DNA of 64,000 nucleotides from Cyanobacteria bacterium SIG29 (GTDB taxonomy: Bacteria > Cyanobacteriota > Vampirovibrionia > Gastranaerophilales > Gastranaerophilaceae): positions 62,001 to 126,000 of the forward strand of contig SUTV01000005.1 in the NCBI GenBank assembly GCA_015152515.1, given 5' to 3'. Positions 2,972 through 30,175 of this stretch are shown here, piece by piece. The notes beneath the pieces are model-generated. The model was not told the origin of the DNA. It saw nothing but the letters and a program-made list of their open reading frames with translations, and searched no databases. The translations under genes were made by a program, and so were the position numbers. Every line of letters starts with the position of its first letter. Position 1 is the first letter of the stretch.

Positions 2972-3934
2972 TTATAGTCCAAGCTTATACATCAAGTCAA
3001 TTTTATCATCAGCAGATTTAACGCCTAATGCACCATCAAAAGCTTTTGAATTGTATACTTTATCAAAATATGGTGAAGCAGTAAATTTATGATTTTTTCT
3101 AACCATTGCCTTCAAAAATTTAGAACAAATTTGTTTTGAATATGTGTATGCCTCTTGTTTTTCATCAACAGAAACCAAGTCTGAATTTTCAAAAGTTTGT
3201 ACAAAATTTGCATCTAAAAGCGCAAATAATACTTCGCCAAATTGTGTTTTATTTCCTTCTAATTTATCAGCAACATCAACAAAATTAATACTTTTGTTTT
3301 TAGTATCTAATAAATAATTATATGGATTATCACAGTCAAATTTATAACCTTGTTTTGTAATGTAATCTATATCGTCAATTAATTTGTCAAAAGATGCTTG
3401 AGGAAACTCTGATAATTTTTTTAATGATGAAATATGAGTTGATATTGTATCTTTACTAACAATATCTTTGCTTTGATATGATACACCATATGAAGTTCCT
3501 GTTTGTTTTTTTAATACATATGTATTTCTTGTAGCACTATGACCGTATGGCTTTCTTACAAGTGCAACAAACTGTCCAATATTCAAATCAGGAGTTACAT
3601 CTTTAATTTTAATTATTTCAGGTGATGGTGTAGTAACATTTGTAAATGTTGAGCGCTTATATTCTTTAATAACCCATTCTTCACAATCTGGAATAGAATA
3701 AGTTGTACCTTCAAAACCTGAACCAATTATATTTGCAGGATTTTCTGTAATTTCATCAATTCGGGAAATAAAATCAGTTTCTTTTGCCCAATGTTCAAAA
3801 GCTTCAGATGAATTATCACGGTTCATAGTGCGTGTTGTTCTAACAAATTCATCGCGTTTTAATTGTGGTAATTTATGACTATTTGATTTAAAATTAATAC
3901 CAAAATTTATATTTGATAATGCATTTATTTTCAT
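2972..3934 (-). CDS. Protein-kinase-fold-like protein with N-terminal NINF motif
   Basis: A 320-residue protein with features of a divergent kinase. There is a glycine-rich loop (G71-S-G-F-E-G76-TTY), a VxIK-type lysine (WVIK, K90), a catalytic-loop-like stretch around residues 199-210 (FDCDNPYNYLLD), and INFVDV (217-221) where DFG would sit. The first 15 residues, MKINALSNINFGINF, match the N-terminus of the RelA/SpoT-like protein at 28.6-30.2 kb. There is no classical signal peptide or membrane span. It lies just upstream of the tmRNA on the same strand, 27 bp apart, and nothing suggests a functional link. It could be an active Ser/Thr or small-molecule kinase, a pseudokinase, or a secreted effector; the fold call rests on motifs alone. 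Confidence 0.5.
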   Translation of the reverse strand: MKINALSNINFGINFKSNSHKLPQLKRDEFVRTTRTMNRDNSSEAFEHWAKETDFISRIDEITENPANIIGSGFEGTTYSIPDCEEWVIKEYKRSTFTNVTTPSPEIIKIKDVTPDLNIGQFVALVRKPYGHSATRNTYVLKKQTGTSYGVSYQSKDIVSKDTISTHISSLKKLSEFPQASFDKLIDDIDYITKQGYKFDCDNPYNYLLDTKNKSINFVDVADKLEGNKTQFGEVLFALLDANFVQTFENSDLVSVDEKQEAYTYSKQICSKFLKAMVRKNHKFTASPYFDKVYNSKAFDGALGVKSADDKIDLMYKLGL

Positions 3935-4041
3935 TTAATATCCTTTTTTTGTTAATAAAAACACTAAAAAAAATTTTTGTCATTATTTTTTAACTAAAAA
4001 AATAGTATATTTTATAAATTCATAACTTTTGTAAACAATAC

Positions 4042-4069
4042 TTGAGAATTAGTTCTCTAGGGTTATATT
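4042..4069 (+). promoter_or_regulatory. Candidate sigma70-type promoter of the branching enzyme
   Basis: TTGAGA (4042-4047), a 16-bp spacer and TATATT (4064-4069) lie about 55 bases before the start codon. A small inverted repeat GAGAA-TTAG-TTCTC (4044-4057) overlaps the -35 and spacer and could be an operator. Confidence 0.4.
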
Positions 4070-4123
4070 TTTTCGTTATTTATGTTATAAATTATATGAT
4101 ACATAAAATAAATGGAGGTTATT

Positions 4124-5845
4124 ATGACAATAGGATCATTCGTATTTATGTTACATTCTCACCTTCCATACTACAGAATGGCTGGTATGTGGCCTTTTGG
4201 TGAGGAAAATCTTTATGAATGTATGTCAGAAACATATGTACCACTTTTAAATGCAATTTCTGAATTGTATGAAGAAGAAGGTATTAAAGCTAAATTAACA
4301 GTTGGTATCACTCCAATTTTAGCTGAACAATTAAATGATTATCACTTACAAGAAGGATTTGTTGAATATTTAGATTCTAGAATTGAAGCTGTAGCAAAAG
4401 ATTTAGATAGATATCCAGACCCAAAAGTTGAACATTCTCAACACTTAAAATATTTAGCAAAATATTACTATGATTGGTTTAACCACATAAAAGATTGTTT
4501 CGTTAATAAATACAACAAAGACTTAATTTCAGCATTTAAAAAATACCAAGACTTAGGCTGTATTGAAATTACAACATCAGGTGCTACTCATGGTTTCTCT
4601 CCATTGTTAGCAACTGATTCTAACTTAAATGCTCAATTTAAAGTTGGTTCAGATACAACTAAAAGATTATTCGGTAAAAAAGCAAAAGGTGCTTGGTTAC
4701 CTGAATGTGCTTATAGACAAGGTTATGAATTTATCGGTAAAGATGGTCAAAAGAAATGGAGACCAGCAATTGAAGTTACTCTTCAAAACAATGATATCGA
4801 ATACTTCTTTACTGAATCACATGTAATTGAAGGCGGTAATTCTGTTGGACATAGAAGAGTTGTTGGTATTTATGGAAATATCGAATACATTCCACTACCT
4901 GAAAGAGAAGCAACTGGTTATGATACATATTCAGCATACTGGTTACCAGATGCACAAGTAGCTGTAATGGGAAGAAATGACAGAGCAGGTTTCCAAGTAT
5001 GGTCAGCAGCTGATGGTTATCCTGGTGATGGCGTTTATAGAGAATTCCATAAAAAAGATGATAAATCAGGTATGAATTATTGGAGAATTACTTCTTCTAC
5101 TACTGATTTAGGTGACAAAATGCTTTATGACCCAGTATTAGCAATGAATCAAGTAAATTCAAACTCTGACCACTATACAACATTGTTGTATGAATTATTA
5201 AATAACTATAAAAAAGCTAACAACAAAGAAGGCTTAATTATGGTTTCATTTGATACTGAATTATATGGACACTGGTGGTTTGAAGGTGTTGAATTTATTA
5301 AGCAAGTTGTTAGAAAATTACATAACTTCTTACCAGAAATTGAAAGATATACTGCTGGTGAATACTTAGAAAAACACCCACCTGTAGATACAATTCAAAT
5401 TCCTGAATCTTCTTGGGGACAAGGTGGACATTTCTATGTATGGTTAAATCATTTAACTGAATGGATGTGGCCAATTATCAATGGTTGTGAAAAAAGAATC
5501 AATGATATAGTTGCTAAATACGAAAAAATTCCTGAAGATAAATTATTACATAGAGCATTAAATCAATTAGCAAGAGAAAATCTACTTCTTCAAAGTTCAG
5601 ATTGGCCATTCTTAATTACAACATGGCAAGCAAAAGATTATGCAACTGAAAGATTTGAAGAACACGTTGCAAGATTTGAAAAGATTGCTGATATGATTGA
5701 AACTGGTAATATTAATGAAGCTGAATTAATTAAAATTGAGTCTATAGATAATTGCTTCCCAGTAATTGATTATAGAGTATACCTTCCAATTGAAGAAGGT
5801 GTTATACCTCAACAAGAAGCTAAATTAGCTCCATTATATGAATAA
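4124..5845 (+). CDS. GH57 1,4-alpha-glucan branching enzyme
   Basis: This enzyme introduces alpha-1,6 branches into glycogen. The 573-residue protein opens with the GH57 signature GSFVFMLHSHLPYYR. It carries the nucleophile region GAWLPECAYR (E194) and the acid/base region FDTELYGHWWFEG (D377), followed by the family's C-terminal helical domain. I place the start at 4124 rather than the in-frame ATG at 4112, because GGAGG at 4115-4119 lies at the right distance only for the later ATG. It stands alone between the kinase-like gene and the vWA genes. A glycogen synthase is encoded at 19.5-22 kb, so glycogen synthesis is split over two loci. Length and motifs fit the cyanobacterial and Thermus branching enzymes; an amylase-type GH57 is less likely. 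Confidence 0.9.
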   Translation: MTIGSFVFMLHSHLPYYRMAGMWPFGEENLYECMSETYVPLLNAISELYEEEGIKAKLTVGITPILAEQLNDYHLQEGFVEYLDSRIEAVAKDLDRYPDPKVEHSQHLKYLAKYYYDWFNHIKDCFVNKYNKDLISAFKKYQDLGCIEITTSGATHGFSPLLATDSNLNAQFKVGSDTTKRLFGKKAKGAWLPECAYRQGYEFIGKDGQKKWRPAIEVTLQNNDIEYFFTESHVIEGGNSVGHRRVVGIYGNIEYIPLPEREATGYDTYSAYWLPDAQVAVMGRNDRAGFQVWSAADGYPGDGVYREFHKKDDKSGMNYWRITSSTTDLGDKMLYDPVLAMNQVNSNSDHYTTLLYELLNNYKKANNKEGLIMVSFDTELYGHWWFEGVEFIKQVVRKLHNFLPEIERYTAGEYLEKHPPVDTIQIPESSWGQGGHFYVWLNHLTEWMWPIINGCEKRINDIVAKYEKIPEDKLLHRALNQLARENLLLQSSDWPFLITTWQAKDYATERFEEHVARFEKIADMIETGNINEAELIKIESIDNCFPVIDYRVYLPIEEGVIPQQEAKLAPLYE

Positions 5846-5865
5846 TTTTCATTTGTATTACAAAT

Positions 5866-5894
5866 AAAGAAGCGGGTAAAACCGCTTCTTTTTA
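5866..5894. terminator. Bidirectional intrinsic terminator
   Basis: AAGAAGCGG (5867-5875) pairs with CCGCTTCTT (5882-5890), followed by a T-run. It separates the convergent branching-enzyme and vWA genes and overlaps the vWA stop codon region. Confidence 0.8.
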
Positions 5895-6632
5895 TTTATT
5901 TATAATTTCAGCTTGAACTTCTTTTTGTAATCTTAAAGAGTCTTCTAAACTATTTTTTAAATCTGCAGCAGTATTTGCATTATAAAATTTTCCTGAAGTT
6001 ACAAGAGCAACACATTTTAATTGGTTGTTTGCATCTTGGTCTCCAACTGCTAAAGCAATAACATCAATATTTATATCATCTCTATATTGAAGTAAATCCA
6101 TAACAAAATCACAAGGGCTTTCATCACAATTTTCGCCACCGTCACTTATTAAAATAATTCTTTTTTTACCTGTAAAACCAGCAAAATCAGAAAAAATAGC
6201 TTGTTTTAAAGAATAAGTAATAGGAGTCCATCCAACAGCATTTGTTGACTTAAGCTCTTTATAAACATTAATTGCATTATTTGGTTGAATTGGTGCAACT
6301 AAAGTTGATGCACTGCAGCTTTGACGAGGAGTAAAGCCAGTTTTATGCCCATAAACTCTTAAACCAACATTAACATTTTGTGGAATTAATTGTAAAATCT
6401 GTTGCATTGTTGATAAAGCAACATCAAGCTTTGTTCTATGTCCCATTTTTTCATTCATACTATTTGAGAAATCAACTATAAAAAGAATTTTTTCTTGTGA
6501 AGAATCAATGGTTGTATTTTTATTGTAATCATAGTTTTTTGGTGTTGAATATGTATAATTTACTGCAGCTTCAACATTAGAACATAATAAATATAATGAA
6601 ATTAAAATCGTTGTAATAAAAAGTTTCTTCAT
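5892..6632 (-). CDS. Secreted von Willebrand factor A-domain protein
   Basis: A vWA protein of about 246 residues. The chosen start (MKKLFITTILISLYLL) gives a clean signal peptide and follows a GGGTGAAG ribosome site; an upstream in-frame ATG at 6665 would bury it. The metal-binding MIDAS motif is present as IVDFSNSMNEK (DxSxS form), followed by WTPITYSL and ILISDGGENCDESPC. It probably acts in the periplasm as a protein-binding or scaffold module. The neighbouring gene is a paralogue (shared ENCD-x-x-PC and the following helix), so the pair arose by duplication. The partner is unknown; no MoxR ATPase, the common partner of vWA proteins, lies nearby. Confidence 0.8.
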   Translation of the reverse strand: MKKLFITTILISLYLLCSNVEAAVNYTYSTPKNYDYNKNTTIDSSQEKILFIVDFSNSMNEKMGHRTKLDVALSTMQQILQLIPQNVNVGLRVYGHKTGFTPRQSCSASTLVAPIQPNNAINVYKELKSTNAVGWTPITYSLKQAIFSDFAGFTGKKRIILISDGGENCDESPCDFVMDLLQYRDDINIDVIALAVGDQDANNQLKCVALVTSGKFYNANTAADLKNSLEDSLRLQKEVQAEIINK

Positions 6633-6700
6633 TTCTTCACCCATAAAATACATAAATAATATCAAATATAGATAACGATGTCATTATCTAATAGTTCATA

Positions 6701-7534
6701 TTATTCATAAAATTCAAGTAAATAACTATTGTATAAAACTCTTTGTTGTTGTCTAGGAGTATTTGTTTGAACAGTAGGGTTATTATATTGTACATAATTT
6801 TTTGTATTGGCATTATTATTAAATGAATTAGTGTTATAATTTGCATTTGGATTATTCATACTAGCACTATTATAATTTGGTTGATTATATGATAATTTAT
6901 TAGATATAGGAGCTATGTCAGCGCTAGTATTAACATCTAAAAACTTACCATTTGTAGCAGTTGATAAACAAGAAAGAAGATTTTTTTCTTCATTTGAAAC
7001 GCCAATCGCTACTATGTCAATTTTTAAATCACTTCTACGCATCATTTCTCTACGAATATACATACAAGGGTCGCCATCACAATTTTCATAGCCATCTGTA
7101 ACCAGAATAATATGTTTTTTAGGAGTGCTTAAATTAAAATCATTTCTAATTGCAAGTTGAAGTGTATATTGCAAAGGTGAAGCACCACTTGGCATAATAT
7201 TAGTTAAACTACTAATAATATTTTGATGATTATTAGATTCAATTCTGTTTAATAAGGCTGTTGCTTCGCATAAAGCATTAGGATTTTTAAATATCATTTG
7301 TGACATTACAACAGGATGAACACCAACAGTCCTTAGTCCAACTCTCTCATCTTGTGGAATAGAGGTTAAAATAGTTTTTACAGCTCTTTTTGCATAATCA
7401 ATTTTAGATGATTCATTATACCTATCCAACATACTTGCAGATTGGTCTAAAATAATTAGAGTTTCTTTGTTTTGATCTGCAAATACAGGTGTGATTAATA
7501 ATAATAAAAGTAAAATAGATAATAATTTCTTCAT
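6701..7534 (-). CDS. Secreted von Willebrand factor A-domain protein with Asn-rich tail
   Basis: A 277-residue protein with a strong signal peptide (MKKLLSILLLLLLITPVFA) and a vWA domain at about residues 22-200. Its MIDAS is LDQSASM, followed by SPLQYTLQ and ILVTDGYENCDGDPC. The last 70 residues are low-complexity, rich in Asn, Tyr and Gln, and look like a disordered linker. It precedes its paralogue (stop 5892) on the same strand, with a 68-base gap to that gene's chosen start, so the two are probably one operon. The Cys residues in ENCDGDPC are shared by both paralogues and may form a disulfide, which fits an exported location. Confidence 0.8.
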   Translation of the reverse strand: MKKLLSILLLLLLITPVFADQNKETLIILDQSASMLDRYNESSKIDYAKRAVKTILTSIPQDERVGLRTVGVHPVVMSQMIFKNPNALCEATALLNRIESNNHQNIISSLTNIMPSGASPLQYTLQLAIRNDFNLSTPKKHIILVTDGYENCDGDPCMYIRREMMRRSDLKIDIVAIGVSNEEKNLLSCLSTATNGKFLDVNTSADIAPISNKLSYNQPNYNSASMNNPNANYNTNSFNNNANTKNYVQYNNPTVQTNTPRQQQRVLYNSYLLEFYE

Positions 7535-7558
7535 ACTAATTAGTATATACTATTATAC

Positions 7559-7590
7559 AAAAAAGAGGAATGTTTAATTCCTCTTTTTTT
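7559..7590 (-). terminator. Intrinsic terminator of the small gene at 7605-7769
   Basis: A/T-flanked stem GAGGAA (7565-7570) with TTCCTC (7578-7583), extended by A:T pairs to about 12 bp, with T-runs on both strands. It lies just after the stop of the minus-strand small gene. Confidence 0.75.
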
Positions 7591-7604
7591 GTATTTTTAT
7601 ATAT

Positions 7605-7769
7605 CTAACAACCTATGCCTAAAGCTTTTTTATACCAGCTAAATGTTTCTATATCGCATCCGTTAAATGTTGTTTTTAAAGATTGTTTTTTAAGATATTT
7701 TTCGAATTCTTCAGTAAATTTACAGGTAATTGAAGACGATGATTTAATTAATTCAGTTGAAGTTGACAT
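7605..7769 (-). CDS. 54-residue small protein of unknown function
   Basis: A short minus-strand gene with a near-ideal ribosome site (AAGGAGG, 7 bases before ATG at 7769) and its own terminator just downstream. The product starts MSTSTELIKSSSSITC and ends in YKKALGIGC. It has three Cys (near residues 16, 38 and 54), no membrane span and a helical, charged middle (FTEEFEKYLKK). No family recognised. The strong Shine-Dalgarno, sensible codon use and terminator argue for a real gene. The longer plus-strand frame over the same bases has no ribosome site. It could be a small regulator or a thiol- or metal-binding peptide. Confidence 0.7.
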   Translation of the reverse strand: MSTSTELIKSSSSITCKFTEEFEKYLKKQSLKTTFNGCDIETFSWYKKALGIGC

Positions 7770-7943
7770 AGGGAGCCTCCTTAATTTTCTAGTACATTAT
7801 GAAATGCTTTCGCGAATTATCATTATTATTATATCATTTTATTTTTTTGAAAATATTTGCCCGATTGAGCGATTTTACAAATACTATGTATTTAGTAGTT
7901 TTGGTCTATGTAAAATATTCTTAATGTGATTGTTTATTTAACT

Positions 7944-9083
7944 TTAAATATATTTAGGGTTTATAGATAACCATTGATATGGTTGAACTTCTATTTCATC
8001 TGGAATATCGATCAAGAAAGTACCACCAAATCGACCACGCCCAAATGTAATATAGCCTTGTGATGCAAGGTTATTTAGCGCTTTTCTAATTGTATTTGTA
8101 CTAACATCAAAAGTTTCAGATAATTCTTTCATTGAAGGTAGTTTATCACCAGCTTTGTATTTTTCTTTGATTAAACTAACAATAGAATTTTCAATTTTTT
8201 GATAAGAGTAAATTGATGCATCTTTAGCTTTTGCAAATATTGAACTTTCTTTTAAAGGCTCAAATGAGTTATTTAAAGGGTCTTTTGCTAAAATACTGCC
8301 ATATCTTCCTCTACGAGAAATAATAATACCTTCGTTTGAAAGTTGTTTTATACAATCGTGAATTGTTTTTACACTAACATTTAGATTTTGAGCTAATTGT
8401 TCATGAGAAGGGATTTTATCACCAATTTTATAATTTTTAGAAAGATATGACTTTAAGTCATTTGTTAGTTTTTGTACTAATGTATCTGCACTAATTTTTT
8501 CAATAGATTTAATTTCTTCATCAGAAATAGTTGGATGGTCTTTTAATATCCAACAAGAATCATTTCCTAATGATTTTTTTACTTCAATAATTCCAATTCT
8601 ATTTAAATATTCATAAGCTAATCTAATTGTATTTTGAGATATACCAATCATATCAGCCATTTTTCTAATAGATGGAACGCTCTTTCCAATTTTGTAGTTT
8701 TTGTTCATAAATATTTTTTGAACAGCAATTATTGATTTATCTCTTTTAGAAGTAGATTTATTTATTTTTATAGGGTTAGAAACGTTTGAAATCATAGTGC
8801 CAAGTCTTTGTTTAGAAGTTAAATATCCTTCATCTTCAACATAACGAATAGCATTTTGAACTGTTCCAACGCTAACACCCAAATAGTCAGATATTTCAGA
8901 TTTCTTAGGTAAAATATCATTCTCTTTAATCATTTTTTTATCAATAGCAGATAATATCCAGTTAATTATCCATTTTTTGATAATTGAATCTTTAGGTTCA
9001 AAAGATGATGTAAAATCTGGAATTTCTGTTGGTAGTTCATTAACAGAAATTTTTCTTTGAAATATAGTATTATTTTCTGACAT
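7944..9083 (-). CDS. Transcription regulator with four tandem GntR winged helices
   Basis: A 379-residue protein made of four consecutive GntR-type winged helix-turn-helix domains, at about residues 33-100, 113-182, 203-270 and 295-362. Each shows the pattern of LPS-like turn, recognition helix (VSVGTVQNAI, ISQNTIRLAY, VSVKTIHDCI, VSTNTIRKAL) and wing (RLGTMIS, RGRYGSIL, RGRFGGTFL). There is no FCD, UTRA or aminotransferase effector domain. Normal GntR proteins have one DNA-binding domain, so this one may bind an array of half-sites as a monomer. I prefer ATG 9083 over GTG 9089 because GGAG sits 5 bases before the ATG. An inverted pair AAGTTACA/TGTAACTT lies in its promoter region, suggesting autoregulation. 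Confidence 0.85.
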   Translation of the reverse strand: MSENNTIFQRKISVNELPTEIPDFTSSFEPKDSIIKKWIINWILSAIDKKMIKENDILPKKSEISDYLGVSVGTVQNAIRYVEDEGYLTSKQRLGTMISNVSNPIKINKSTSKRDKSIIAVQKIFMNKNYKIGKSVPSIRKMADMIGISQNTIRLAYEYLNRIGIIEVKKSLGNDSCWILKDHPTISDEEIKSIEKISADTLVQKLTNDLKSYLSKNYKIGDKIPSHEQLAQNLNVSVKTIHDCIKQLSNEGIIISRRGRYGSILAKDPLNNSFEPLKESSIFAKAKDASIYSYQKIENSIVSLIKEKYKAGDKLPSMKELSETFDVSTNTIRKALNNLASQGYITFGRGRFGGTFLIDIPDEIEVQPYQWLSINPKYI

Positions 9084-9105
9084 AATCACTCCGATTTTTT
9101 TATTT

Positions 9106-19458: not shown

Positions 19459-22047
19459 TTATTGAACGTCAGGCAATGTTTTTCTATCAATACCTATTTT
19501 ATCAAGATAATCATAAACAGGACCTTGTTTACCTTTTTGAATCCAACTAAAATCTTCAGCTAATGAATCACTTACCATTTTTTTGTATTGTTCTGGGTTA
19601 TTAAAGTAAACTTGTAAGCCTTTTTTCATAGCTTGGTAAAAACCATCTGCATCAAGTGGTTTATTTTTATCAGTTAAAATACCATTTGTTTTACCATCAC
19701 GATTTACAGTATCAACAATACCACCAACTGCACTTCCGATTACAGGAGTTGCAACTGCGAATGCTTCACCTTGAGTTAAACCACAAGGTTCAAAAATACT
19801 TGGTAATAAGAAGAAATCTGATGCAGCTGTTATTGCTGTCATTGGTGCAAAACCATTCGCAAATACAACTCTGTTTGAATCTTCTTTTGATAAATCATCA
19901 GATTTTAATTTCTTTAATCTAGCAGCATGAACGCCACCTTCACCATCAGAACCTGCAATATAGAATATTGGTTTATTTTTACCAGGGAAATCTTGTTCCC
20001 AGTTATCCATTAACATTTTAATTGCATCTGACATTATGCCAATACCTTTTTGAGAAACTAAACGACCTACAGATGCGATTACAGGTGTTTGCGCTAAATT
20101 AGCATAGTCTAATTTTTCTAATTTTGTTTCGCCTTCTGATACAAGTCCATTTCTACCTTTATTTTCTGTAAAAGGAACCATAAATTCGTTATAGAATTTA
20201 ACTTTATTTTGTGTTCTTGCTTCCATTATAGAATTAATATCAGATTGTTTGTTATATGTTTCAAAATCAAGACCAGTTTGATTTTTAATTGTATCTTTCT
20301 TTGCTTCAATAGATAAATTGTTGAAGTCATTACCATTTATGATACCAACTACGCTACCAGCATTAGTTTTTTGAGTTAACGCCCATCTTAATTCACCAGC
20401 TAGTTCTGGGTGTGAATCTGAAATTATTTCTTTTGCATAATTTTGAGATACAGGATGGAAATAATCACTTAAGCATATACCCATATTTAATAAATTTGTA
20501 TGATTTTCATATGAATTTTGAGAATTTAAAATTAAAACATTGTCTAAATTTGCTAAACCTGAATCAGCTATATTTGTTTGAGATGCGTTAGTTCTAGCAT
20601 TAGATACAATGTCGTATGTATAACTGTCAAATAATGTATTTAAAATATTTGATGTAGCTTGTGTTCTTTGAGCGTTATCATTGTTATTTTGTGTTGAACC
20701 TTGATACATTGCATTATGACCAATTGTAATAATATTCATTTCTGATAATTTTTTAGAAGCTTCGTCAGATAATTGACCGTGAGCATTTTCCATTGGAGCT
20801 TTATATCTTGCTAAAGCAGCAATAGGAGAAGCTTGCCAATCATTTAAAACAAATGCATCAGGAGCTTTTACAGAATCAAATGTTTCTCTGTTTTCAATTT
20901 TTAAGCCTTTAACACTGTTTTCATCAACTTTTGCTTTAGCAAACTCATAAACTGCTTTAGAGAAGAAAGCAAATTTTTCAGGTTCTTCAGTTTTATTTGT
21001 TGTTTGATAGATTGTTCCATCGAAATAAGTATCATTTTTAATAAATACTAATTTTTTGCCACCAGCATTAGAAACAAAAACTTCAACATCTTCTGTTTGA
21101 GGTTTTGAACCTTGGAAGCTATCAACTTTAAATGAAGCAGCTTTTTCTAATTCAAACTTTTTACCTTTGTAAGTATAAGTGTACTTACCATTTTCTTGTT
21201 TTAATACTGCACTTCCTTCTCTTTGATACATTGGAATAAATGTAGGGATATCAATACCTAATTTAGACACATTGTTTTGAATTTCAACAGGAACTGAACC
21301 TAAACCACCCTCTTTAATAGGTGCAAATTCTGAAGTTACTGACCACAATGTTGGGTTTTCGCTTGTAATAGGTTTTGCTTTTGGTGCATTATATAAGTAA
21401 TTAGGGGCAGCAGTTTGAATTTGTTTAATAGCTGCTTCATATTTAACAGAATTTCTATTCATAGCATCATTATTTTGTAATAATTGTATGCCATTTAAAT
21501 TTTTTAAATATTTTCTAGATAATGAATTTTGTGATGTAGATAACGCTTGTTCTGATTTATAAACAGCTTCATTAGAACGAGCTTCAACATTTGATACTCT
21601 ATCACCAACTTTTGCTGTAACTTCTTTTTTGTCTGCAGCAGATAATTTACCAGCTTTATAAGTGCCAGTCAAACCACCAATTGCAAGAATTGCAGACCAT
21701 ATTTGAGCATTATCTTTTCTTGATTTGTCAGCTTGTTTTTTTACTGTATCAGCAATTTTTGCTGTTTCAGGAATAACTTCTTTTAATTTTGCAAGATCAT
21801 CACCCAAATTTGAAATTTGTTGTTTTAAGGCTTTGGTATTTTTATTTGCGATTTTATATGTAACAGCTGCAGTTATTGGAATTGTAATAGCGCAAACAGC
21901 AATTGGAGCAACAGTTTTAACAACTTCCATTCTTTTTGCTTTTTTAATTGCTTTATCATCTTGAACTGTAGTTTTAGAATTATTTACAGGAACTACAGGA
22001 GATCCACTTGTTACAGGTGACGAAAAATTTGTAAAAATATTTGTCAT
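19459..22047 (-). CDS. glgA: Glycogen synthase with membrane-anchor-like N-terminal extension
   Basis: A GT5 glycogen/starch synthase that transfers glucose from ADP-glucose. The catalytic part, after about residue 235, shows the KxGGL donor motif (SEFAPIKEGGLGSVPVEI), FVLNDWQASP, PVIASVGRLVSQKG and the C-terminal FLLPSIFEPCGLTQGEAFAVATPVIGS. It is much longer than usual (862 against about 480). It has a 230-residue N-terminal extension with a membrane-like helix at about 43-66 (VKTVAPIAVCAITIPITA), a second hydrophobic patch near 116-131, and Lys/Ala coiled helix. ATG 22047 is chosen because GGGG precedes it at 7 bases. The branching enzyme lies at 4-6 kb. It may attach glycogen synthesis to the membrane. 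Confidence 0.9.
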   Translation of the reverse strand: MTNIFTNFSSPVTSGSPVVPVNNSKTTVQDDKAIKKAKRMEVVKTVAPIAVCAITIPITAAVTYKIANKNTKALKQQISNLGDDLAKLKEVIPETAKIADTVKKQADKSRKDNAQIWSAILAIGGLTGTYKAGKLSAADKKEVTAKVGDRVSNVEARSNEAVYKSEQALSTSQNSLSRKYLKNLNGIQLLQNNDAMNRNSVKYEAAIKQIQTAAPNYLYNAPKAKPITSENPTLWSVTSEFAPIKEGGLGSVPVEIQNNVSKLGIDIPTFIPMYQREGSAVLKQENGKYTYTYKGKKFELEKAASFKVDSFQGSKPQTEDVEVFVSNAGGKKLVFIKNDTYFDGTIYQTTNKTEEPEKFAFFSKAVYEFAKAKVDENSVKGLKIENRETFDSVKAPDAFVLNDWQASPIAALARYKAPMENAHGQLSDEASKKLSEMNIITIGHNAMYQGSTQNNNDNAQRTQATSNILNTLFDSYTYDIVSNARTNASQTNIADSGLANLDNVLILNSQNSYENHTNLLNMGICLSDYFHPVSQNYAKEIISDSHPELAGELRWALTQKTNAGSVVGIINGNDFNNLSIEAKKDTIKNQTGLDFETYNKQSDINSIMEARTQNKVKFYNEFMVPFTENKGRNGLVSEGETKLEKLDYANLAQTPVIASVGRLVSQKGIGIMSDAIKMLMDNWEQDFPGKNKPIFYIAGSDGEGGVHAARLKKLKSDDLSKEDSNRVVFANGFAPMTAITAASDFFLLPSIFEPCGLTQGEAFAVATPVIGSAVGGIVDTVNRDGKTNGILTDKNKPLDADGFYQAMKKGLQVYFNNPEQYKKMVSDSLAEDFSWIQKGKQGPVYDYLDKIGIDRKTLPDVQ

Positions 22048-22073
22048 ACCAAACCCCTTATTAGAACACACTT

Positions 22074-22141: not shown

Positions 22142-23158
22142 TTAATAAATAAATTCAATATCTATTTGACTATCTTTATACTTTAAATTAAATCTTTTTA
22201 TTAAATCTTCAATATGAGCACTTACATAGAATTCTAATTTTATAAGTTTGCAAATAAAAATATAAAATCTAGTCAAATTTATCACTTTTAACATTGTTTT
22301 TTTATCATTTTCATTTTCGCAAATCCAATGCATATCAACATTTAAAATTGTACTTTTAATTTTATATTGTTTTGATTTTAATAAAAATTTTAAAATTTGA
22401 ATTTTAGAATCATTAACAGATGGAACAATAATAAATTTCAATTTTAAAGCAGATAAATTTTCTTGATTTAAAACACTTTGATACTTTTTAATATTAGCCC
22501 AGAGTTGAGTCCATAAATCTTTCTGTTTGATTTTTTTAAATGTTTTTCTATCACCTGAATCAATTGAAGTAATTAAGGTAATATAACCATTTTTTAAACC
22601 ATTCAATATACCATTAGAAAAAATTGTACAGTTTGAATTTATATTTATATTTGAAATATTAGCATCAATAAACAAATTTAAAATTTCATTAAAATGTTTA
22701 TCTAAAGTTGATTCACCACCTGCAAAATCAATTTTAGTATCTTTATCAATTAAATTTTTATCAAGCATATCTTTAAAAACAGGAAGCAAATCATATTCTT
22801 TTGTATTGTCTAAAATATAATTATTATTATGATTTTTACAATAAATACATTGTAGATTGCATTTTACCCAAGTATTTAAAAGAATATAATTAAATCTTTT
22901 TTTAAAATTTTTCCAATTATCTTCTCTAATCCATGTACAATTTTTACAAGCTTCAAGAGAACCACCTTGCTTCATTAATTGAATATGTTCCTCTTTTTTA
23001 CTAAAGAATAAATCCCAATCAATTAATTCACCATTATAATTTTCATACAAAAGTGGTTGACCGCCATCTGGAGTGACCATTGAACAATAAGAAATTTTAT
23101 TTAAATGATTAAAAAATAATTCACCTTCTATAGAGTGACAACTTCTGTATCTACACAT
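22142..23158 (-). CDS. Radical SAM protein with N-terminal Cys-rich module
   Basis: A 338-residue member of the family repeated three times at 55.9-58.9 kb. The N-terminus shows the shared RSCHSIEG...SYCSM, then GG-x-x-L-x-YENY-x-G-x-LIDW and a CKNC pair, four or five Cys in the first 80 residues. These could hold an auxiliary iron-sulfur cluster. The core site is CNLQCIYC (Cx3Cx2C), followed by DFAGGEST (SAM-contact strand), ITSIDSG and IVPSVNDSK. There is no C-terminal SPASM domain. It is divergent from msbA, with 93 bases between. The substrate is unknown. It is more divergent from the three tandem copies than they are among themselves. Confidence 0.85.
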   Translation of the reverse strand: MCRYRSCHSIEGELFFNHLNKISYCSMVTPDGGQPLLYENYNGELIDWDLFFSKKEEHIQLMKQGGSLEACKNCTWIREDNWKNFKKRFNYILLNTWVKCNLQCIYCKNHNNNYILDNTKEYDLLPVFKDMLDKNLIDKDTKIDFAGGESTLDKHFNEILNLFIDANISNININSNCTIFSNGILNGLKNGYITLITSIDSGDRKTFKKIKQKDLWTQLWANIKKYQSVLNQENLSALKLKFIIVPSVNDSKIQILKFLLKSKQYKIKSTILNVDMHWICENENDKKTMLKVINLTRFYIFICKLIKLEFYVSAHIEDLIKRFNLKYKDSQIDIEFIY

Positions 23159-23251: not shown

Positions 23252-25054
23252 ATGAAATTAAAAGACTCACAAGCATTAACCTCGTTTGATTATGGATGGT
23301 TATTAAAACGCATTTTTCCTTATATAAAGCCATTTTTAGGCAGAGTAATTTTAGGTTTTTTAGTAGCAATACCCGTAGGTTTATTAGATGGTGTTGTTTC
23401 TTTTTCACTTAAACCATACATGGACTATGTAGTAGGAAAACAAAATCTTGTATTATTCGGTTTTGAAATACCATATATGTTATTAGCATATTGTATGCCT
23501 TTTGCAATTGTGGCTTTTGCAGGGCTACAAGGGGTTTTAAGATACTTAAACACTTACTTGACTGATTGGACAAGTATGAAGATTACAAACGCTGTTAAAA
23601 TTGATTTATTTAAACGACTTGTTTATATGGATACATCATTCTTTGATGAAAATTCATCTGGAATTATATTAAATAGATATTTATCTGATCCAGATACTGC
23701 GTCAAGAGGTATTGTAGATAATATTACAACATTAATTATTAGTATATTTGGTGCAGTATCCCTTGTAATTGTTATGTTATATAGTTCTTGGAAATTAGCT
23801 TTAGTTGGTGTTATAGTGCTTGCTGGAGCTTTTGTGCCAGTATTATTTATAAGAAAAAAAATAAAATCAGTTTCAAACAAAAATATCGTTATTAACGGCG
23901 ATATTATGACAACAATGAATGAAACATATTCAGGAAATAAAGTTGTAACTGCATATAACTTACAAGAAAGACAAAATAGCCATTTCCAAAAAGGCATATT
24001 TAAAAGCTTTGATGTTTCAATTTCATTAACAAAACGTGTTGGTTGGATGTCACCAATTATGTATATAATTGCATCTTGCGGGATTGCATTTGTTTTATTC
24101 TATGGAACAAAATTAATTTATGATGGTCAAATGACAGCTGGTGGTTTTGCATCATTTGTTACATCACTTTTATTATTGTATAAGCCAGTAAAAACTCTTG
24201 GTAGAACTTTATCTCATATCCAAACAATATTTGTATCATTAGGAAGAGTTTTTGAATTATTTGATTATGTTCCAATTATTAATGACAAAAAAGAAACAAC
24301 TTCTATTCAAGAACTTCAACAAGGAATTCAATTTGAAAATGTTAATTTTGAATATGTAAAAGATACTCCAGTATTAAAAAATATCAATCTAACAGTTAAA
24401 AAAGGTGAAACTCTTGCTTTAGTTGGAAATTCAGGTGGTGGCAAGTCAACAATAGTTAATTTAATACCAAGATTTTATGATGTAATTTCAGGTACAATTA
24501 AATTTGACAATATTGATATACGAAATTTCAAACTAAATGAACTAAGAAATTCAATTTCATTCGTTTTCCAAGATAATTTCTTATTTTCTGGCACAATTAG
24601 AGAAAATATATTACTTGGAAAACCTAATGCAACAGAAGAAGAGCTTGCAAAAGCTGTAACATCATCACATTTAGATGATGTAATAGCTTCATTACCTGAT
24701 GGTTTAGATACTATTTTAGGAGAAAGAGGATTAACATTATCTGGTGGTCAAAGACAACGCGTTGCAATAGCAAGAGCAATGATTAAAAACTCACCAATTA
24801 TCATTTTAGATGAAGCAACATCAGCTTTAGATAATGAATCTGAAGCAATAGTTCAACAAGCATTAGATAACCTAATTAAAAACAAAACAGTATTTGTTAT
24901 AGCACATAGACTTTCAACAATCAAAAATGCTGATAGAATTGCTGTAATGAATAATGGAGAATTGGTTGAACTTGGAACTCACGACGAACTAATTAAAATA
25001 AATGATGGACAATATAAACACTTATACGAAATGCAATTTAAAGGAAAAGAATAA
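23252..25054 (+). CDS. msbA: MsbA-like lipid flippase ABC transporter
   Basis: A 600-residue half-transporter fusing a six-helix ABC membrane domain (about 20-330) to an ATPase. Walker A is GNSGGGKST, the Q-loop region is [11 protein letters not shown], the signature is [14 protein letters not shown], Walker B is [12 protein letters not shown] and the switch is AHRLS. This organisation fits MsbA/LpxO-type export of lipid A or other lipid-linked glycans across the inner membrane. It is followed directly (1 base) by the UDP-xylose synthase gene and then an outer-membrane barrel, so it heads an envelope operon. A drug-exporter role is possible but the context favours lipid or glycan transport. 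Confidence 0.85.
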
Positions 25055-25055
25055 A

Positions 25056-25991
25056 ATGAAACGTATTTTAATTACAGGTGGAGCTGGTTTTATTGGTTCA
25101 CATCTATCAGAAAGATTATTAAATGATGGAAATGATGTTATTTGTTTAGATAACTTCTTTACAGGGTCTAAAAATAACATACGACATTTAATAGGTAATA
25201 ATCGTTTTGAATTAGTAAGACACGACATTATTTTAGAATATTTAGCAGAAGTTGACCAAATTTATAATTTAGCTTGTCCAGCTTCTCCAATACATTATCA
25301 ATATAACCCAATTAAAACTATGAAAACATCTGTAATGGGCATAATAAATATGTTAGGTTTGGCAAAAAGATGTAAAGCTAGGATATTACAAGCAAGTACA
25401 AGTGAAGTTTATGGAGACCCTCATATTCATCCACAAGTTGAAAGCTATTGGGGTAATGTAAACCCTATTGGAATAAGAAGTTGCTACGATGAAGGTAAAA
25501 GAGCAGCAGAAACTCTTATGATGGACTACCATAGACAAAATAATGTTGATATAAGAATAGCTAGAATATTTAATACATACGGCCCTAGAATGGCCATAAA
25601 TGACGGAAGAGTTGTTTCTAATTTTATTATACAAGCACTTAAAAATGAACCAATAACAGTATATGGCGAAGGTTCTCAAACAAGAGCTTTTTGCTATGTT
25701 TCTGACTTAGTAGAAGCATTAATTCGATTTATGAATAATGAAGAAAACTTTATAGGACCAGTTAATTTAGGAAACCCTCACGAATTTACAATATTAGAAT
25801 TTGCAAAATTAATTATAAAATTAACAAATTCAAATTCTGAAATTATATTTAAAGAGCTTCCAAAAGATGACCCTATTCAAAGAGAACCTGATATATCTCT
25901 TGCTAAAGAAAAGCTTAATTGGACTCCATCAATTTCAGTTGAAGAAGGCTTAATGAAAACAATTGAATATTTTGAAAAAGTACTTAATTAA
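25056..25991 (+). CDS. uxs: UDP-glucuronate decarboxylase (UDP-xylose synthase)
   Basis: Converts UDP-glucuronate to UDP-xylose through a NAD-bound 4-keto intermediate. The 311-residue protein is an extended SDR. NAD motif [10 protein letters not shown] and the Asp of ICLDNFFTG (selecting NAD) are present, as are [11 protein letters not shown] and [13 protein letters not shown] with the catalytic Tyr and Lys (YxxxK). The family tail [20 protein letters not shown] follows. The start at 25056, one base after the msbA stop, matches the family N-terminus MKRILITGG. The product probably feeds surface glycan synthesis. The gene overlaps the porin gene start by one base. Confidence 0.92.
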
Positions 25992-27100
25992 TGAAAAAAA
26001 TTTTAACTTTAATTTTAATAATTTTATTTAGTTTAAATTATTCTTATGCAGTTGAAGAAATACACCTAGAAAAAGAAAAGAATACTTTTGACTTTATTGC
26101 TGATGTATATTATGGAAAAGTTGAAAATATAAATCCAGCAATCAAATTATTTACTCGAAAAGGACTTCAATTTGAAAATTCATATATTAATTCAGTAAAA
26201 GCGACATTTTTCTATGATGGACAATTAAATTTTTTAATACCTGAAAATGGAAGCATTAGCACAAAACACGATTTTTCTGTAATAGAACCTATGATTAATA
26301 CAAAATTCAATGAAAATAAGTCAGAATTTGAATTTAGCTATAACATTGTACGCGAAGTTGATGGTCATCCAAATGGATTTACTAGAAGAATATCTAATTT
26401 ATATTTCTTACACAAATTAAATGAAAATCAATCTATATTACTAGGTCAAGGCGACAGAGTACCAACGAACTACAACGGAAGCATTTCAACATGGAGACAA
26501 GAATTTGTTTTAAGATCTATGTTAGGTAGAACATTCGGAGATGCAAGATCAGTTGGTATTAGAAATCTAGCAAATTATAAATATGTTGAATATGATATTG
26601 GCTTATATGATAGTACAAGATATATGAAAGATTTTGGTAGAGGTTTAGACTTTACTGGTTATGTTATGTTCAAACCACTTGCAAACTTTGAGGATAAAAT
26701 AGGAACACTCAAATTAGGTTCAAGCTATAATTATGGCGAATATAATACATCATATTCTCAATATTCCTTCTTTTTAGGATATGACTACAATAAAGTGCAT
26801 TTTAAATCTGAATACGCAAATGCAGATGGATATAACACAAAAGTTACCTTTAATGATAAAGCAGATGGCTTTTATACTACATTAGGCTACGATATAACTC
26901 CAAAATTAACGATTATTGGAAGATATGATTATATGAATCCTAACAAAAAAATATATAATGATAATCAGCAAGAATTTACTGCTGGAATTATATATAAAAT
27001 GTTTAAGAATATGAAATTTTTTATTAACTATGTACACAGAGATTTTGAAAATAAACCAGACTCTAATATGATTTTATTTGCTACTAGGTTCATTATTTAG
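25991..27100 (+). CDS. Outer-membrane porin-like beta-barrel protein
   Basis: A 369-residue exported protein with signal peptide [20 protein letters not shown]. The mature part is dominated by alternating hydrophobic/polar strands with aromatic girdles (FFLGYDYNKVHFKSEYANADGY, GFYTTLGYDITPKLTIIGRYDYM) and ends in ILFATRFII, a terminal strand suited to BAM recognition though closing with Ile rather than Phe. This fits a phosphate-selective or general porin-like barrel of about 16 strands. It starts at the last base of uxs and precedes a TPR gene, so it belongs to the envelope operon. Ligand unknown. Confidence 0.7.
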   Translation: MKKILTLILIILFSLNYSYAVEEIHLEKEKNTFDFIADVYYGKVENINPAIKLFTRKGLQFENSYINSVKATFFYDGQLNFLIPENGSISTKHDFSVIEPMINTKFNENKSEFEFSYNIVREVDGHPNGFTRRISNLYFLHKLNENQSILLGQGDRVPTNYNGSISTWRQEFVLRSMLGRTFGDARSVGIRNLANYKYVEYDIGLYDSTRYMKDFGRGLDFTGYVMFKPLANFEDKIGTLKLGSSYNYGEYNTSYSQYSFFLGYDYNKVHFKSEYANADGYNTKVTFNDKADGFYTTLGYDITPKLTIIGRYDYMNPNKKIYNDNQQEFTAGIIYKMFKNMKFFINYVHRDFENKPDSNMILFATRFII

Positions 27101-27112
27101 TATAATTAAACC

Positions 27113-28183
27113 ATGCAGAAAGATAATAAAAAACAAGTTGTAGAAGATTTAATAAAGAAAATTGTTGAAAATCCAAACATTTCAGATAACTATTTGAAAC
27201 TTGCTTCAATTTATATGTCTGACAATGAGTATGATTTAGCAATAAGTGTTTATGAAAGCTTAATAAATATAGAAAAATCAAATTTCCTTGCATTAATGAA
27301 TTTAGGGAATATTTATTTCTATAAAAATGAATTTCAAAAAGCTGTAAATTATTATTCAAGAACTATAACGCTTGGAATTGAAAATAACACAATTTACTAT
27401 AATTTAGGCAATGCATTAGCTGAACTTGGTGAGTTTAAACAAGCAATGTCTAATTACATTAAAGCATTAAATTTAGAACCCAATAATGACAAAATTTACG
27501 CTGCAATCGGATTATTATACCAAGACCAACTTAACTATGAAGAAGCGATTAAATACTATATAAAAGCACTAGACTTAAATAATTCTGATGAAAGTAATTA
27601 TATCAATTTGTCATTAGCTTTAATGCAAACTGGAGAAAACAGTAAAGCAATTGAATACTTTAATCAGGCTTTAAAAATGTCTCCTGATAATGTAAAATAT
27701 CTATTATTTATTGCAAACGCGTATTCTGCAAATAAAGAATATAATAATGCTAACAAAACTTTTGAAAAGATACTTGAATTAGAACCAAATTATTATCAGG
27801 CATACTTATGCTATGCAATTTCAAAATTTGAGCAAACTTTAATTCAAGATTCAATAGAACTATACAATAAAGCAATAAATTTATTTCCTGAAATAACAAA
27901 TGCTTATGTATTATTAGCAAATTTATATTTTTCAGAAAAGAAATATGAAAATGCCTGTGAACTATACATAAAAGCTATTCAATTAGAACCATCTGAACCA
28001 AGCATTTACACACTTTTAGGAAATACTTATGTAATGATGAAAGATTTAAGGTCTGCAATTTCTATCTATAAACAAGCGTTAGATATTGATACTAACAATG
28101 ATGAATTAAAGCTGATTTATATAGAAATAGTGCAAGAATTTATTAAAAACAAAAAAGAACAAGAGAATACAAATGTCGCATAA
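27113..28183 (+). CDS. Tetratricopeptide-repeat protein
   Basis: A 356-residue protein made almost entirely of TPR units, about nine or ten, with classic W/Y-x-x-LG-x-x-x-A positions (IYYNLGNALAELGEFKQAMSNYIKAL, split at residues 84-109). No signal peptide or membrane span, so a cytoplasmic scaffold. It starts 12 bases after the porin gene and its end overlaps the next gene by 11 bases, so it is operonic with the membrane protein that follows. A third TPR protein of similar style lies at 60-61 kb. Partner unknown. Confidence 0.85.
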   Translation: MQKDNKKQVVEDLIKKIVENPNISDNYLKLASIYMSDNEYDLAISVYESLINIEKSNFLALMNLGNIYFYKNEFQKAVNYYSRTITLGIENNTIYYNLGNALAELGEFKQAMSNYIKALNLEPNNDKIYAAIGLLYQDQLNYEEAIKYYIKALDLNNSDESNYINLSLALMQTGENSKAIEYFNQALKMSPDNVKYLLFIANAYSANKEYNNANKTFEKILELEPNYYQAYLCYAISKFEQTLIQDSIELYNKAINLFPEITNAYVLLANLYFSEKKYENACELYIKAIQLEPSEPSIYTLLGNTYVMMKDLRSAISIYKQALDIDTNNDELKLIYIEIVQEFIKNKKEQENTNVA

Positions 28184-28610
28184 CACATATAGAATACAAC
28201 CAATTGAAAAAATAATATCTATTTTATCATATTTAACAATGGGAATTGTTGGTTTAATTTGGATAATAATTGCACACATAAATAAAAGAAATTTAAAATA
28301 TTTTCTTATGTATAATATTTCTCAATCTATGATTATTGCTGTAATTCTAGCAATTTTTAAAACTCTTATAGATTTATTAGTGCCAATTTTATGGATAATT
28401 CCAGTTATTAGCTATGTTGCAAGTGCTATTAATTTCATAGTATCTGTAAAAATTATTAGATTATATTTTATTGGTATTTCATTCTCAATTTTTGAATTAG
28501 CAGTATTTTTATTACTTGCATATATTATACTTGGTGTAATAAATGGTAGAATTTCAAAAGTACCACTTTTAACAAATATAATGAATAAAGCAATGAAAAA
28601 CTATAATTAA
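28173..28610 (+). CDS. Small four-helix membrane protein, possibly Tic20-like
   Basis: A 145-residue integral membrane protein with four hydrophobic helices (about 12-32, 45-65, 70-95, 105-128). The second segment, LKYFLMYNISQSMIIAVILAI, resembles the RFNxMQAxLLDI motif of Tic20 family proteins found in cyanobacteria and plastids. The helix count also fits. The identity is low and other DUF4870-like families share the shape. It overlaps the TPR gene upstream by 11 bases and the convergent RelA-like gene by 4 at the stop. If Tic20-like, it would be a lineage marker rather than a protein importer. Confidence 0.55.
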   Translation: MSHNTYRIQPIEKIISILSYLTMGIVGLIWIIIAHINKRNLKYFLMYNISQSMIIAVILAIFKTLIDLLVPILWIIPVISYVASAINFIVSVKIIRLYFIGISFSIFELAVFLLLAYIILGVINGRISKVPLLTNIMNKAMKNYN

Positions 28611-30175
28611 TCTTGATTTAATTTATTATCTATTAATTTTTTAACAGTTTTTATATTACCAGAAGAAATAATATTTTTTTCTGGAGAAGCAGATGAAGTA
28701 GCTTGTTGTTTTTGGTCTGCAAGTTTTTTCTGATTTTTACAATGATTATATAAATCTCTCAAACAATTGAAATCAAGATGACGAGGAACTTTACCTGCAT
28801 AACCCAACTCTTTAATAGTAGGAAATGAAGTTGATCTTTTTTTGCTTGAAACTAATCTTTGAGTTAAATACAAATCATAAGTATAATCATCAAATGCTTC
28901 CATTGTATCTTCGTTATAATATTTTAAGAAATAGTCTTTAAATGGTTTAAATGCAACATTAATTGCATTTTTCTTATCTTTTAATTTATAACAAACATCT
29001 TCAATTTGTTTTAATTGTTCAACATTTGTACCAATAATTTGAATTTCACCAGAATATCCATTATAAACTCCACCATAATTTTTAAAGATAGGGTCAGATA
29101 AATCAACATCAATGTGAATTGACATATAACCAGTTTTTGATTCATTTATATTTAATGTTGTATTAACAGGTGGTATATCAGGTTGTTCAACACGAGGTCT
29201 AGCATTAACTAAATTTACTAAATCTTTTTTATCTGCATAAGAATAATCATTAACAGTTTTGCCTTGAGGAATTTTTAATGAACTAGGTACATTATTTTCC
29301 ACCGCTTTAATTCTTAATACACCATCTTCAACTGCTTTTTGTAACGCAGCAAGAATTTTTGCAGTATTTTCATGAGAACCTTCTTTTAATACAATCCTTG
29401 CTCCAACAATATCATTTGCATAATATTTAATACCTGGAAGAGTTTTTGGATCAATATATCTGCCCTCAGGTGATAAAAGCGCTGATTCGTTCTTTTGAAT
29501 TTTACTTACAATATTTTGACTTATTGAATTAATTTTTTCTTGTGAATAACCAGAAAAATCTAAATAATCAAATGTTTTTAAATCTTCAATAATTCTAGGA
29601 ACTAATGTTGCAGCCTCTCTTATTGCAGAAGTTTTTTGCGGAGAACCTGAATGTTTAGAAACTTGTTTAATTATATCAGTTATATTTTTTTCACTAACAC
29701 CAGATTTTATAGGGAAATAACTTGAAAGATTTTCTAGCACTTGATTTGCAAAATTATCATGTTCAGTTTTATATAGTCTTGCGTGTTTTGAAACAACTTT
29801 TTCTCTAATACTTGTAGCAGACTTAATACGAATTTCATATGTCGCTATTTTTTTAGATGATGGAATTGATTTTTTATTGCTTGGTCTTACATTTAAAATT
29901 TCTTTAGTCACCTGATTTTCTTTTAAATCAGCCAAATCAGAAATATATTTATCTAAAACAGAAAATAAATAATAGCAAGCACAAGCTGCATTTTCTTCAA
30001 CACCTTTACATTGATTAGCTTGAGGAGCATCTACCATGCTTTCTGCTAACAATTCAGAACGACCTGAAAAAGTTACTGTATCTTGTCTTAAAGGCATTAA
30101 ATTAGGGTAATGGTGTTTAGGCATTACCGCAAAATTATTTTTAAAATTTAAATTATTAACAGCAAAAATTTTCAT
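28607..30175 (-). CDS. Lone RelA/SpoT-type nucleotide synthetase domain protein with N-terminal NLNF motif
   Basis: A 522-residue protein with a full set of RelA/SpoT synthetase motifs. YEIRIKSATSIREK (113-126) matches the GTP/ATP-site helix pattern RxKxxxSxxxK. NDIVGARIVL (254-263) holds the metal Asp. TGYMSIHI (348-355) has the Tyr that stacks on the acceptor, and GEIQI (376-380) the catalytic Glu. There is no HD hydrolase, TGS or ACT domain. The N-terminus, MKIFAVNNLNFKNNF, matches the kinase-like protein at 2.9-3.9 kb, and VTFSG follows near residue 34. It might make (p)ppGpp, or act on tRNA as toxic small synthetases do. It is last in a minus-strand run after the SIS gene. No antitoxin-like partner is visible. 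Confidence 0.75.
   Translation of the reverse strand: MKIFAVNNLNFKNNFAVMPKHHYPNLMPLRQDTVTFSGRSELLAESMVDAPQANQCKGVEENAACACYYLFSVLDKYISDLADLKENQVTKEILNVRPSNKKSIPSSKKIATYEIRIKSATSIREKVVSKHARLYKTEHDNFANQVLENLSSYFPIKSGVSEKNITDIIKQVSKHSGSPQKTSAIREAATLVPRIIEDLKTFDYLDFSGYSQEKINSISQNIVSKIQKNESALLSPEGRYIDPKTLPGIKYYANDIVGARIVLKEGSHENTAKILAALQKAVEDGVLRIKAVENNVPSSLKIPQGKTVNDYSYADKKDLVNLVNARPRVEQPDIPPVNTTLNINESKTGYMSIHIDVDLSDPIFKNYGGVYNGYSGEIQIIGTNVEQLKQIEDVCYKLKDKKNAINVAFKPFKDYFLKYYNEDTMEAFDDYTYDLYLTQRLVSSKKRSTSFPTIKELGYAGKVPRHLDFNCLRDLYNHCKNQKKLADQKQQATSSASPEKNIISSGNIKTVKKLIDNKLNQD

Follow-up and report, generated by a model that had tools for sequence, protein, structure and literature searches.

An N-terminal two-part head on unrelated proteins of a Gastranaerophilales genome is probably a targeting signal

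The window analysed here is a stretch of 64,000 nucleotides (G000:C6:62001-126000) from a Gastranaerophilales genome, whose 82.5%-complete assembly comprises 1.54 Mb in 13 contigs at about 29% GC. It holds two genes, both on the minus strand, whose protein starts had been quoted as alike in a prediction made from the sequence alone. The kinase-like protein begins MKINALSNINFGINF (3934 to 2972) and the RelA/SpoT-like protein, hereafter RelA-like, begins MKIFAVNNLNFKNNF (30175 to 28607); both N-termini exist as quoted. Across the window's genome we find an N-terminal signature that consists of M-[KN]-I-[SN]-x-[IV]-[NS], a linker, and then V-[ST]-F-[KGST]-[GA] before the folded domain. We refer to this two-part start as the head, and from sequence comparisons we consider it very probable that the head serves Gastranaerophilales as a linear, bipartite targeting signal at the N-terminus. 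The features of the window that bear on it are as follows.

2972..3934, minus strand: kinase-like protein, 320 amino acids, an open reading frame (ORF) of a head-bearing family with 30 members
3911..3934, minus strand: first element of the kinase-like head, MKINALSN, a start of the M[KN]I[NS] type in which position 6 is L, not I/V
3839..3853, minus strand: second element of the kinase-like head, D28-E-F30-V-R; the family form is D-x-F-V-K-x-x-SF[KS]G
28607..30175, minus strand: RelA/SpoT-like protein, 522 amino acids, head-bearing; named from a profile match in homologues, an AlphaFold2 model and Foldseek
30152..30175, minus strand: first element of the RelA-like head, MKIFAVNN; I3 in 76% and N7 in 62% of 58 aligned sequences
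30062..30109, minus strand: second element of the RelA-like head, YPNLMPLRQDTVTFSG, residues 23-38, with D32 and F36 invariant
54547..55890, plus strand: protein of 447 amino acids with stretches resembling transmembrane (TM) segments, named in the original prediction; SFKG at residues 202-205 (55150-55161)

Genome-wide scans covered 762 ORFs from 55% of the window's genome (Candidatus Gastranaerophilales), and the second part was sought as [ST]-F-[KGSTRQA]-[GASKN] within 75 residues. Both parts were present in 26/762 ORFs, against 4.9 ± 2.1 in 1000 shuffles (maximum 13). In the association test, which used the 635 ORFs of at least 150 amino acids, the second motif occurred in 22/56 ORFs with an M[KNRQ][IV] start versus 44/579 of the others (odds ratio 7.9, p 1.2e-9), and over residues 77-147 it was unassociated with such starts (4/56 versus 23/579, p 0.21). 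M[KNRQ]I[NS]x[IV] starts were found in 19/762 ORFs versus 0.7 in shuffled sequences (maximum 4), and the same pattern followed an internal Met in 4/4618 cases. These shuffle and internal-window controls, together with the D and F retained in 58/58 aligned RelA-like sequences, make it highly improbable that the head is a by-product in which AT-rich starts favour Lys-Ile-Ser/Asn and Asn-rich linkers and the remainder is chance, an explanation that would suit a genome of such GC content and the lack of enrichment of the literal 15-residue likeness described below. An unsupervised k-mer enrichment returned mostly hydrophobic or low-complexity words and not the head (ISF, 32 N-terminal versus 55 elsewhere).

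The strict two-part regular expression gave a set (a) of 26 ORFs, at least three of which are probable false positives: a signal peptide at window position 31317, a membrane protein at C3:18090 and a dehydrogenase-like start at C13c:15080. A Shine-Dalgarno-like word lies upstream of 19/26 of these strict heads versus 394/736 other ORFs; the RelA-like gene is without one. A wider rule (set b) gave 29 heads in 28 body clusters, and dropping C1:130291 (a long ORF), C3:18090 and C4:2727 (an antisense-looking ORF) left a cleaned set (c) of 26 heads. The RelA-like ORF is in set (a) and not in (b) or (c), and the kinase-like ORF is in none of the three. The 26 cleaned heads sit on 25 unrelated body clusters, the single pair being two phosphoesterases. 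When the 26 whole proteins were aligned with MAFFT, the M1 and F columns were invariant and I3 was kept in at least 90%; because M1, I3 and F belonged to the selection, this result shows alignability only. Among the columns that were not selected, position 6 is I/V in 20/26 cleaned heads, position 7 is N/S in 19/26, and the residue two before F is V/I in 16/26. The linker between the two parts is variable, rich in Asn and Ser and poor in acidic residues (N 18% versus 6% in the bodies, S 12% versus 6.5%, D+E 5% versus 15%).

The original prediction had taken a 15-residue block at the two starts as the shared signal, and that block did not hold up. Its expression, N[ILV].F.{0,3}[NG]F within the first 40 residues, matches 3/762 ORFs against a shuffle mean of 0.7 and a shuffle maximum of 5, and the three matches are the two quoted proteins and one other. 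At positions 7-15, the most frequent residue accounts for 19-64% of the 58 aligned RelA-like sequences. Since the expression is not enriched and the positions drift, the likeness at residues 7-15 is mostly coincidence in an Asn-rich linker. A further remark on FSG/FKG motifs points to the real signal, DTVTFSG (RelA-like residues 32-38). The SFKG of the protein at 54.5 kb is not N-terminal, starting as it does at residue 202, so we rejected it as an N-terminal signal. An internal duplication in that protein was also unsupported (best E 0.068). The broader proposal, that a short common head on different catalytic domains is a sorting, secretion or anchoring signal of a non-standard kind, is supported in kind by the enrichment, by the 25 unrelated bodies on 26 heads, by residues that stay invariant where no fold is predicted and by a head on extra but not on housekeeping-type paralogues; secretion and anchoring are putative, the link to an export machine is contextual, and the motif definition is wrong.

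The RelA-like family carries the clearest conservation. Its profile matches at least 79 loci in named genomes; among the matches listed, 63/79 are titled Gastranaerophilales, Melainabacteria, Avigastranaerophilus or Galligastranaerophilus, and the remaining 16 are uncultured or unnamed bacteria (13), Cyanobacteria (2) and Clostridia (1). The N-termini of the homologues have a free linker followed by a conserved D-T-V-S-F-S-G. D32 and F36 are present in 58/58 aligned sequences, which are 26-47% identical to the window copy, and are as invariant as D255, R260, Y350, H354, E377 and Q379, presumably the catalytic residues. The alignment consists of 57/78 ORFs plus the window copy, the 21 omitted ORFs including three without D-x-[VIL]-x-F; the figure of 58/58 therefore holds for a selected alignment. 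Over all 78 ORFs the strict motif occurs in 68/78 (0/426 background windows) and D-x-[VIL]-x-F in 75/78, seven of the ten strict-motif misses retaining D and F as DLVTF, DLVSF, DTVDF, DTVIF, DTINF, DTLTF or DCVSF.

An AlphaFold2 model built from the 58 sequences has a mean predicted local distance difference test (pLDDT) score of 89.3. Within it, pLDDT falls below 50 at residues 1-12, 14-18 and 32-41, the block means are 40-58 as far as residue 40, and none of the residues before 44 is assigned to a secondary structure, so that the head seems to be conserved yet to lie outside the enzyme fold. Because it has been kept in evolution and apparently outside the folded enzyme, the head is probably an address label. 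The same properties, conservation in this family and no predicted structure immediately ahead of the folded domain, would also be expected if the head governed processing or stability, as a propeptide or degron for a protease or chaperone with F as the recognition or cleavage site. We regard that as improbable, since part 1 at the extreme start also has a consensus and a variable linker lies between the two parts.

As to the enzyme itself, Pfam RelA_SpoT (PF04607) matches 5/30 homologues (best E 4.7e-7) and leaves the window copy unmatched. In a Foldseek search of the PDB with the model, 21 of the top 23 rows were alarmone synthetase, GTP pyrophosphokinase or CapRel, the other two being an unnamed S. 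mutans protein; these matches are weak (best E 8.6e-3, TMt 0.40, none at E <= 0.001). The protein thus resembles small alarmone synthetases, CapRel and toxSAS in its best fold matches and in the Pfam assignment of its homologues, but it is larger, having additional helical regions as well as the N-terminal head, and its fold matches are weak and its catalysis putative. A longer form of the head is also found on two other proteins of the genome, at C5:128868 (YQNLSPLKYDTVSFGA) and C13b:57509 (KLSPLTKDIVSFGA), whose bodies cluster with no other headed protein. When C5:128868 was compared with the RelA-like protein by blastp, the best alignment was the 23-residue head stretch (E 0.007).

Most members of the kinase-like family have a stretch resembling D-x-F-V-K-x-x-S-F-K-G after the free linker. 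The D and F of its D-x-F (D28 and F30 of the window copy) are each found in at least 90% of 30 sequences; our alignment numbers them D27 and F29 because the first Met was left out. That alignment contains 30/31 ORFs, L038 having been omitted as it is without its N-terminus. Among the homologues a loose [DN]-x-[FYV]-[VIKEQ] is present in 30/30 and [ST]F[KGSL] in 21/30, and the window copy is without the SF part of the second element. By eye, the 30 members share the motifs G-x-G-x-x, K, D..N and D. The profile match to kinase structures was weak (best E 0.0062), there was no Pfam kinase match, and a single-sequence AlphaFold2 model was unusable (pLDDT 39). Directly downstream of this gene, on the same strand, is a transfer-messenger RNA (tmRNA) gene (2555-2944, minus strand) with the tag peptide ATNNVVKADFSRAAALAA.

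Pfam and NCBIfam name few of the 26 carriers, and the majority are unnamed. Those with a name are two calcineurin-like phosphoesterases, a phosphoglucomutase, a glycogen-synthase-like protein, a Hel308-like helicase and an acetyltransferase; cupin-like and DnaJ-like matches lie below the cut-off. This mixture indicates no single pathway. A glycogen-synthase-like protein inside the window (19459-22071, minus strand) has an unusual N-terminal extension with a TM-like stretch and is headless by eye. The phosphoglucomutases offer a comparison of paralogues: an extra phosphoglucomutase is headed in 9/9 loci (the window's genome and eight relatives), with D[TSV]V[ST]F forms, and the housekeeping-type enzyme is headless in 19/19, starting directly at the enzyme (MTEIKFGTDGW). 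The genomes behind the headless rows belong to the same genus and order, but none of them is one with a headed copy. We took 29/30 phosphoglucomutase loci (L292 was omitted), 28 of which gave an ORF (L277 gave none); in L269 the head starts at the second Met.

Headed metabolic enzymes such as the phosphoglucomutase and the glycogen-synthase-like protein, along with a helicase, would make sense if the head sent proteins to a place inside the cell, such as a shell, a membrane patch or a scaffold complex, with part 2 binding a resident scaffold protein. Short linear motifs on extra paralogues fit cargo loading, and in some carriers TM-like stretches follow the head (by eye). Among 58 genomes, however, the encapsulin shell family PF04454 occurs in 0/58 (microcompartment shells were not searched for), and the gene context described below points to the C-domain of FlhA. 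We hold such intracellular placement to be rather unlikely, and an encapsulin cargo peptide in particular was rejected on the same count of the shell gene.

A second flagellum-type apparatus is the candidate reader of the head. In 35 sampled genomes of the window's genus, FlhA scores above the family cut-off in 35/35 and FlhB in 32/35, and a flagellin match is found in 2/35, one being a fragment of 77 residues. The sister families, sampled with 22 genomes, have FlhA in 22/22 and flagellin in 21/22. The window's genome has its own flagellum-type cluster (C13:170-180 kb), where Pfam names a FliI-type ATPase, FlhA, FliH, an unnamed protein, FliF, FliE, a transglycosylase and two rod proteins; by eye it continues with two FlgF/G-like proteins. 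The flagellated relative G045 has the same gene order on C1 (29-40 kb), where the unnamed protein is encoded once more than in the window's genome (by eye), and another, separate cluster on C3 (213-244 kb) with FliP, FliR, FlhB and FlhA (genes named by eye; L222-L225 span the two clusters). Because G045 has both clusters, the one on C1 matching that of the window's genome, the order seems from these gene orders to have two flagellum-type systems, of which this genus would retain only the one that lies on C1 in G045, here called the second.

The genome also encodes a stand-alone FlhA C-domain protein (FlhA-C) of about 490 residues (L221:11488-12951), its second FHIPEP match, and such a protein is present in 33/35 genomes of the genus. 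By eye, its gene adjoins head-like genes in 6/8 loci, namely that of the window's genome and those of five genomes of other genera; head-likeness here admits forms as loose as SFxRRP, and those five loci are not independent since they belong to one conserved neighbourhood. In G045, the neighbours of the FlhA-C gene are hook and FliK-like genes; a DTVSFG gene is found some 2 kb away from the second cluster, that on C1.

The sorting logic would be identical if the head served a different secretion route, such as an ABC exporter or a system like type II secretion. The linker composition does not look like the Sec type (L 3.8% versus 8.0%, with the high Asn and Ser content given above), although by eye a stretch resembling a TM segment or a lipobox follows further along in some carriers, and VirB4 is found in 1/58 relatives, other systems not having been searched for. 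On these grounds we think such a route quite improbable. Type IV secretion was rejected on the VirB4 count.

The head is strongest in the window's genus. In G025, of the same genus, the two-part head occurs in 5/235 ORFs (expected 1.4), and the second motif in 4/16 M[KNRQ][IV] starters versus 8/178 others (p 0.01). Two genomes of another class gave 1/73 (expected 0.1). Counts were 0/152 in family f8 and 0/35 in the Cyanobacterium sampled, and the class relative G057, which has no FlhA, FlhB or flagellin match and is without FHIPEP, gave 0/152 ORFs. Headed genes of the DTVSF form are nevertheless present, by inspection, in the order outside this genus. At the DNA level, a loose pattern for D-T-[VI/M]-[ST]-F-x-[GA], which admits a few other codons, has 88 matches in 48 family genomes (45 with at least one) versus 13 for the codon-reversed and 2 for the backward control; in 69 other, mostly larger genomes of the phylum it has 59 versus 39 and 32. 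One match lies in the RelA-like gene (G000:C6:92063-92082, that is, window 30063-30082). N-terminal placement was checked for 3/88 matches, both in the window's genome and one at G161:C1:56270.

Based on these findings, we propose the following mechanism. The head would be read by the second flagellum-type III export apparatus, retained despite the lack of flagellin in 33/35 members of the genus. Part 2 ([D-T-]V-[ST]-F-[KGST]-[GA]) would dock on the export gate, either at the FlhB C-domain, at the FlhA C-domain or at the stand-alone FlhA-C, and part 1 would open the gate. The alarmone-synthetase-like and kinase-like proteins, the phosphoglucomutase, the glycogen-synthase-like protein, the phosphoesterases and the acetyltransferase would in this way leave the cytoplasm. 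Judged from the gene content, export via the leftover flagellar apparatus would be the best single mechanism, with a likelihood that we place slightly under even. For the whole chain, consisting of a targeting signal, its reading by the second flagellum-type III apparatus and the export of enzymes, we see about an even chance. A still more specific version is put forward tentatively, as one possibility: these gut-dwelling, non-photosynthetic relatives of cyanobacteria would have turned the filament-less second apparatus, with the stand-alone FlhA-C as receptor, into a device that exports or injects unrelated enzymes by the dozen, all bearing the two-part code.

Gate recognition motifs have the general form FxxxPhi. 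Early flagellar subunits carry a dual export signal, an N-terminal hydrophobic signal and a gate recognition motif, and FlgD requires at least 19 residues between its two signals (PMC8983047). The head likewise has small hydrophobic residues at the extreme N-terminus (I/V in 26/26 at position 3, a selected column, and at the non-selected position 6 as given above), then a linker and a separate docking-type motif. Unlike the signals of early flagellar subunits, it has a V-S-F-[KG]-[GA] consensus, and its cargo is enzyme-like rather than rod or hook subunits. The M-to-F spacing in the 26 cleaned heads is 7-57 and below 25 in 11/26. By analogy, the head may work like a type III export signal outside the known class; we do not assign it to a known signal class because FxxxPhi and the minimum spacing are not kept. 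Conserved N-terminal translocation heads are also shared by non-homologous injected effectors, and the logic of one signal on unrelated proteins is the same here. The consensus is different, however, the apparatus of this gut order is of the flagellum type and not of the injectisome type, and delivery is putative.

Several observations weigh against export by this apparatus. Concerning the signal, the heads show no excess of FxxxPhi (hydrophobic at +4 in 27% versus 32% background), on which count the classic flagellar gate recognition motif was rejected, and F stands at position 7-22 in 11/26 heads, closer than a spacing of at least 19 residues would allow. Three of the 78 RelA-like ORFs are without the D..F form, L201 and L216 keeping only a TFGSG or SFTG form and L209 neither. 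Concerning the machine, FlhB was not found in the window's own incomplete assembly (FliP, FliQ and FliR were not searched for), and the FlhA-C genes of G025 and G045 have no adjoining head-like gene. The Hel308-like helicase and the phosphoglucomutase among the carriers look cytoplasmic. As for the distribution, the apparatus is present outside the genus without an excess of heads: the two-part head occurs in 2/372 ORFs in other genera of the family (expected 1.8), in 0/196 in families f2-f6 (expected 0.5) and in 4/306 in f7 (expected 1.5), the association test being significant in none of these three groups; and family f9 has FlhA and gave 0/144. Because the machine and the DTVSF heads are both order-wide, their co-occurrence amounts to one phylogenetic contrast.

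As a rule, type III export signals are not easily recognised in a sequence. In the present case the cargo seems to be marked by a compact conserved code, and candidate exported proteins of an uncultured gut group could thus be listed from genomes; if our proposal is true, the exported proteome could be read directly from genomes through the N-terminal code. In the gut Melainabacteria genome MEL.A1 filament genes are missing, which was interpreted as possible ongoing genome reduction (PMC3787301), and partial flagellar gene sets are also described in PMC5877343. In contrast to that reading, FlhA and FlhB are widely kept in the genus studied here (35/35 and 32/35), and a syntenic second cluster exists in a flagellated relative. 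Export of headed enzymes would, if true, provide a function for filament-less flagella earlier read as decay (PMC3787301), and would bear on how flagella turn into secretion systems. In the open-licence literature searched, we found no apparent description of the head or of a Gastranaerophilales type III system.

Three other features of the window are of note. A regulator of 381 amino acids (7944-9089, minus strand) reads by eye as a single chain of four GntR-type winged-helix units in tandem. At 5892-7534 on the minus strand, a pair of neighbouring genes encodes proteins that by eye resemble von Willebrand A. Four proteins related to one another, which look radical-SAM-like by eye, have cysteine clusters of the CxxxC type and are encoded at 22142-23158 (minus strand) and 55948-58914 (plus strand), three of them in tandem.

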